The position numbers were made by a program, and so were the translations under genes. From Spirogloea muscicola (lineage: Eukaryota > Streptophyta > Zygnematophyceae > Spirogloeales > Spirogloeaceae), in contig WELB01000037.1 of the NCBI GenBank assembly GCA_009602725.1, positions 74,245-104,379 of the forward strand: 30,135 nucleotides of DNA, written 5' to 3'. Under the pieces are notes generated by a model. That model was not told the origin of the DNA, did no database searches, and worked only from the letters and a program-made list of their open reading frames with translations. This document shows positions 13,858 through 13,997 of the stretch, in pieces. Positions within the stretch are counted from its first letter, which is position 1. Each line of letters starts with the position of its first letter.

Positions 13858-13997
13858 AAAAAAAAAAAAAAAAAAAAAAAAAAAAAAAAAAAAAAAAAAA
13901 AAAAAAAAAAAAAAAAAAAAAAAAAAAAAAAAAAAAAAAAAAAAAAAAAAAAAAAAAAAAAAAAAAAAAAAAAAAAAAAAAGACGCTCTTCCGATCT
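13858..13997. other. Poly(A) run plus Illumina adapter remnant (assembly artefact)
   Basis: There are 124 consecutive A from 13858 to 13981, then GACGCTCTTCCGATCT at 13982-13997, identical to the 3' end of the standard Illumina adapter. Coding sequence of the next gene starts immediately after. Genomic origin is very unlikely. Confidence 0.97.

Follow-up and report, generated by a model that had tools for sequence, protein, structure and literature searches.

The window studied here is a stretch of 30,135 nucleotides from the Spirogloea muscicola assembly (contig C37, positions 74245 to 104379; the assembly comprises 153,112,186 bases in 471 contigs). Within it, an assembly gap is followed by a long A run, by the end of an Illumina adapter and by a truncated exon-like frame, and a second exon-like frame lies against the other side of the gap (Table 1). 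The A run is the sole run of A or T of at least 12 bases in the window, and the last 13 bases of the adapter (GCTCTTCCGATCT) have one exact match within the window; a second match, at 16435, has 2 mismatches and is not above chance, since 0.76 matches are expected and 20 of the 100 shuffled sequences gave as many as 2. On the minus strand, positions 13982 to 13997 read AGATCGGAAGAGCGTC, which is the sense in which a read-through reads the adapter. The exon has a GC fraction of 0.755, and for the 200 bases to the left of the gap the value is 0.815.

Table 1. Features around the gap in the window, and pairs of adapter loci that share a break base
Feature	Position	Strand	Basis
Assembly gap, 172 N	13686..13857	.	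Direct reading of the window
Artefactual run of 124 A	13858..13981	.	Direct reading; assembly-wide A/T run counts
Last 16 bases of the Illumina P5/read-1 adapter, GACGCTCTTCCGATCT	13982..13997	+	Letters and assembly-wide recurrence
Exon-like frame PPKSPPPPPPNPPCAAGSGCAKCTGVLLDYILEALDI, truncated, joined directly to the adapter and followed by a GT donor-like site	13998..14109	+	Frame reading and C47 copy
2346 bases identical to contig C46 (289757-292102, minus strand; L038), there too behind A124 and adapter	13998..16343	+	Sequence comparison
Exon-like frame with signal-peptide-like start (ALPLALLLAALLLGAPARALDSPCSACRHLS), start codon presumably in the gap	13593..13685	-	Inference
Same-base break pairs: L010/L012, L013/L015, L014/L024, L063/L085, L068/L084, L074/L089, L080/L095, L081/L091			

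The preliminary description had given the order as a gap of 172 N, 124 A and an adapter end fused directly to a coding exon, and these coordinates are exact. The right-hand frame begins at 13998, is GC rich and ends at a donor-like GTGAGT; since only one of the first 36 residues differs in its copy on contig C47, where GTAAGT occupies the donor position, the frame can reasonably be called a coding exon. The adapter is in frame with this exon, so that TLFRS precedes PPKSPP, with lysine codons ahead. When open frames were listed from stop to stop, none of the six was interrupted within the N and A runs; homopolymer reading frames there are therefore mechanical, which accounts for the predicted Lys or Phe homopolymer proteins that the preliminary description had called spurious. 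The suggestion that two genes have corrupted 5' ends is plausible rather than proved: the left frame, on the minus strand and signal-peptide-like (ALPLALLLAALLLGAPARA), has reached no start codon where it enters the gap, and the right frame starts abruptly at PPKSPP. The copy of the left side on contig C21 may supply the start codon of the left gene (MAPAARALPLAL), an assignment that is tentative because the string shared there is just 20 bases long. A Pfam scan of 10 window frames other than the two truncated exons returned no family at E values up to 0.01.

The adapter in the window is one of many. The complete 16-mer has 21 exact copies in 153.1 Mb, where 0.081 would be expected from the composition of the window, and its reversed control has none; with one mismatch allowed, there are 26 copies, and 2 of the control. 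The 13-mer has 63 exact copies, with 4.7 expected by chance and none of the control. All 63 of these loci were fetched, together with the four one-mismatch places that have a changed base. Counting an arm when at least 2 bases past the 13-mer agreed with it, we found the P5/read-1 arm at 22 loci, the P7/read-2 arm at 25 and neither at 16; the length of adapter retained differs between loci. The letters of both arms are given as Illumina adapters in PMC10038132. The window agrees with the published adapter at 16 of 16 bases, and elsewhere up to 22 to 24 bases agree, arm included (for example at L021 and L063), which directly establishes the identity of the adapter.

The position and the polarity of the adapter are equally direct observations. 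N is found within 140 bases 5' of the adapter at 56 of the 63 loci, 32 of which also have an A or T run of at least 20 bases, and at none of the 63 is N found within 80 bases 3' of it. The adapter joins the insert by its 3' end; its opposite end points away from the genome. The 13-mer copies are split 45 to 18 between the strands (P = 0.0009), a bias that hints at extension having started from one particular side of each gap. On C47 and C103, the last base of the adapter is replaced (GATCG and GATCC, respectively, for GATCT); there the contig may have kept its own last base and taken only the later bases from the read.

Seven of the 63 loci have no nearby N. L021 carries 22 adapter bases and no gap, L063 and L085 each carry 24 bases of the P7 arm, at L062 the 13-mer follows 13 T, and L094 sits at a contig end. 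The other two, L059 and L092, show the bare 13-mer with neither arm nor gap, in contexts that are alike (AACAGCTCTTCCGATCTACGGCA in both but for one base), and are probably a genuine repeat of the genome. Small departures from the adapter letters were also seen: wherever the P5 arm extends as far as CCC (L014, L024, and L029), CC stands instead, and the P7 arm at L082 is one T short; both are homopolymers shortened within the adapter.

Long A and T runs were counted across the assembly from windows of fixed length. Windows of 100 A number 43858 and 20145 on the two strands, windows of 124 A number 35584 and 12410, and windows of 125 A number 35522 and 12366. From the differences between such counts, 62 and 44 runs of at least 124 bases are present on the two strands (106 in total), compared with means of 345 and 322 runs per strand (667 in total) of at least L bases for L from 100 to 123; the number of runs thus drops steeply at a length of 124. 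The runs that were read directly are the 32 that adjoin adapters; nine of these are 124 bases long, six are 123 and none is longer than 124. A run far longer than 124 was seen on C3 (902895 to at least 903118), and the window counts imply a few runs of hundreds to thousands of bases.

These data bear on the origin of the homopolymer, which might be taken for the poly-A tail of the adapter read. We do not favour that idea: A runs and T runs both exist, and they vastly outnumber the adapters. Because these runs are about 10 times as numerous as the adapters, occur as A or as T and fall off sharply at 124, the A124 of the window is probably not simply such a tail. The order that had been proposed for the read strand (genomic sequence, adapter read-through, then homopolymer) is thus upheld as regards the adapter artefact, and probably not as regards the homopolymer as a mere read tail. 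The long A and T runs look like a general artefact of gap edges, wider in extent than the adapter; the limit of 124 perhaps stems from the read length or the word length of a program.

For 16 of the 21 loci with the 16-mer, the 160 bases 3' of the adapter were searched in the genome itself, and 12 regions homologous to nine loci, in which the match extends to or near the break, were chosen. Eight of the 12 (seven loci) are readable at the break and have nonadapter sequence there; L106 and L109 are weakly aligned beside the break and L101 has N within the last 16 bases. The other four have N or a T run. The absence of the adapter from the readable homologues is again a direct observation, and with the recurrence of both Illumina arms at gap edges it bears out the claim that adapter and homopolymer are built into the assembly.

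We therefore conclude, with a probability of about 0.99, that the gap-edge homopolymer and adapter in the window are an assembly artefact. A fuller account is very probable too, if held less firmly as to the exact step: untrimmed Illumina reads, presumably of short inserts, would have run past the insert into the adapter, and at a GC-rich gap overlap-based extension or gap closing may have let such reads lengthen the contig end. The first adapter bases, 16 in this case, would thereby have been appended to the exon, and the extension would have gone on to produce a homopolymer without meaning, rarely of more than 124 bases, until it halted at the remaining N gap. Homologous gaps may have used the same reads.

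Several observations sit uneasily with this account. On the read strand of the window, poly-T follows after just 16 adapter bases, whereas plain read-through would give more adapter, and the excess of A and T runs over adapters implies that part of the process was not driven by the adapter. Seven loci lack nearby N, and two of them look natural. The break in the window itself lacks a readable homologue: its right flank matches elsewhere only C46 and C47, both of which bear the same artefact. Finally, among the 63 loci there are eight pairs with a common break base (Table 1), and C47 is a third copy with the break base of the window; random insert ends would not coincide in this way unless the reads were shared. 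Over the first 70 bases past the break, four pairs are identical; the other four differ at 1 or 2 positions, of which the closest to the break is base 12. We think that nearly identical ends attracted the same adapter reads during gap closing and that the copy-specific bases were either kept from the contig or restored by polishing.

It is on this point that other explanations gain some ground. GC-rich or structured DNA could break, or stall the polymerase, at one fixed base shared by all homologous copies. The adapters would then mark reproducible ends of library molecules in diverged copies, and such points in GC-rich coding DNA would leave a gap in each of them. The break base common to the eight pairs, four of which do differ, and the high GC content on both sides of the gap speak for this explanation; however, the other four pairs show no difference in 70 bases, and 0 to 2 differences per 70 bases leaves room for common reads with the copy-specific bases kept or restored. 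We regard sequence-fixed fragment ends as unlikely.

More doubtful still is mispriming during library PCR, in which a P5 or P7 primer would anneal at genomic sites resembling its own 3' end and fuse to them before sequencing. Mispriming would account for a break base common to diverged copies, both in the eight pairs and on C47, which is 84% identical to the window, but it calls for genomic sequence upstream of the break that resembles the primer. In the eight readable copies among the 12 regions it does not: the final seven bases agree with the end of the primer at only 0 to 3 positions, with a mean of 1.5 (1.75 if the bases were equally likely). That the genome itself contains the A run and the adapter-like string is extremely unlikely. 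In favour of this idea, a bare 13-mer can be natural, as at L059 and L092, and 4.7 copies are expected by chance; against it, both commercial arms occur, at variable length and beside N, A and T runs are found alike, run length falls sharply at 124 and the readable homologues are free of adapter.

The copies of the window also bear on what the gap joins, and show that the damage reaches further than first described. Positions 13998 to 29340 are present in three copies (C37, C46, and C47) of roughly 80 to 85% identity, and the left side has a copy on C21 of 88% identity (7938 to 13429), a pattern suggestive of a genome that is duplicated, polyploid or separated into haplotypes. On C46, A124 and the adapter stand as in the window, followed by N2092; the block from 13858 to 17379 is 97.7% identical to C46, and blocks further to the right are 79 to 81% identical. 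The exactly identical 2346 bases within this block reflect either recent gene conversion or one assembled piece that was used twice. On C47, identity is 84% for the first 1.6 kb and 81 to 83% beyond; this contig has A62, the adapter at the same base and N11182. A single N follows a short T run at position 7905 of the window, near where the C21 match starts (7938) and where C21 has N1253; both copies are thus gapped at about the same place.

None of the homologous contigs examined (C21, C46, and C47) supports the adjacency of left and right sides across the gap of the window. The 20 kb of C21 past the left match contains only seven short matches (43 to 350 bases) to the right side of the window, and no match to the gap-adjacent part of it. 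Beyond their gaps, C46 and C47 share three blocks (348 to 1067 bases, 84 to 91%). When the 33.7 kb that precede the gap on C37 were compared with C46 beyond its gap, 0 of 96 matches lay in that stretch; for C47, 3 of 22 did (108 to 273 bases, 73 to 92%). This lack of support could also reflect a real rearrangement or sequence concealed in the N runs.

As a fault, the combination of adapter and homopolymer is of an ordinary type; it is widespread in the assembly and is not part of the biology. About 60 places with adapter and several hundred with long A or T runs are nevertheless of concern to users of the assembly: gene models beside such places are truncated, or may gain a lysine run and TLFRS, or polyphenylalanine on the opposite strand, and joins over such gaps require checking. 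The faulty places can be found by screening for the adapter letters and for runs of about 100 to 124 A or T beside N. In the literature on adapter contamination, on this assembly and on gap closing, no recognised account of the assembly or of its homopolymer habit was found at the level of titles and abstract openings.

Among known kinds of artefact, the closest are two. Contamination of draft assemblies by Illumina TruSeq-type adapters is matched by the exact letters of both arms, by the 3' end lying against the genome and by the location at contig or gap edges. Unlike that pattern, the adapters in this assembly are cut at variable lengths and mostly adjoin N or A/T runs seldom longer than 124, and homologous copies share the break base at several places. 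The artefacts of short-read gap closing and contig extension are reminiscent of the present case in other respects, namely contig ends that seem to have grown into N gaps, gap edges with long homopolymers and a block exactly duplicated on two contigs.
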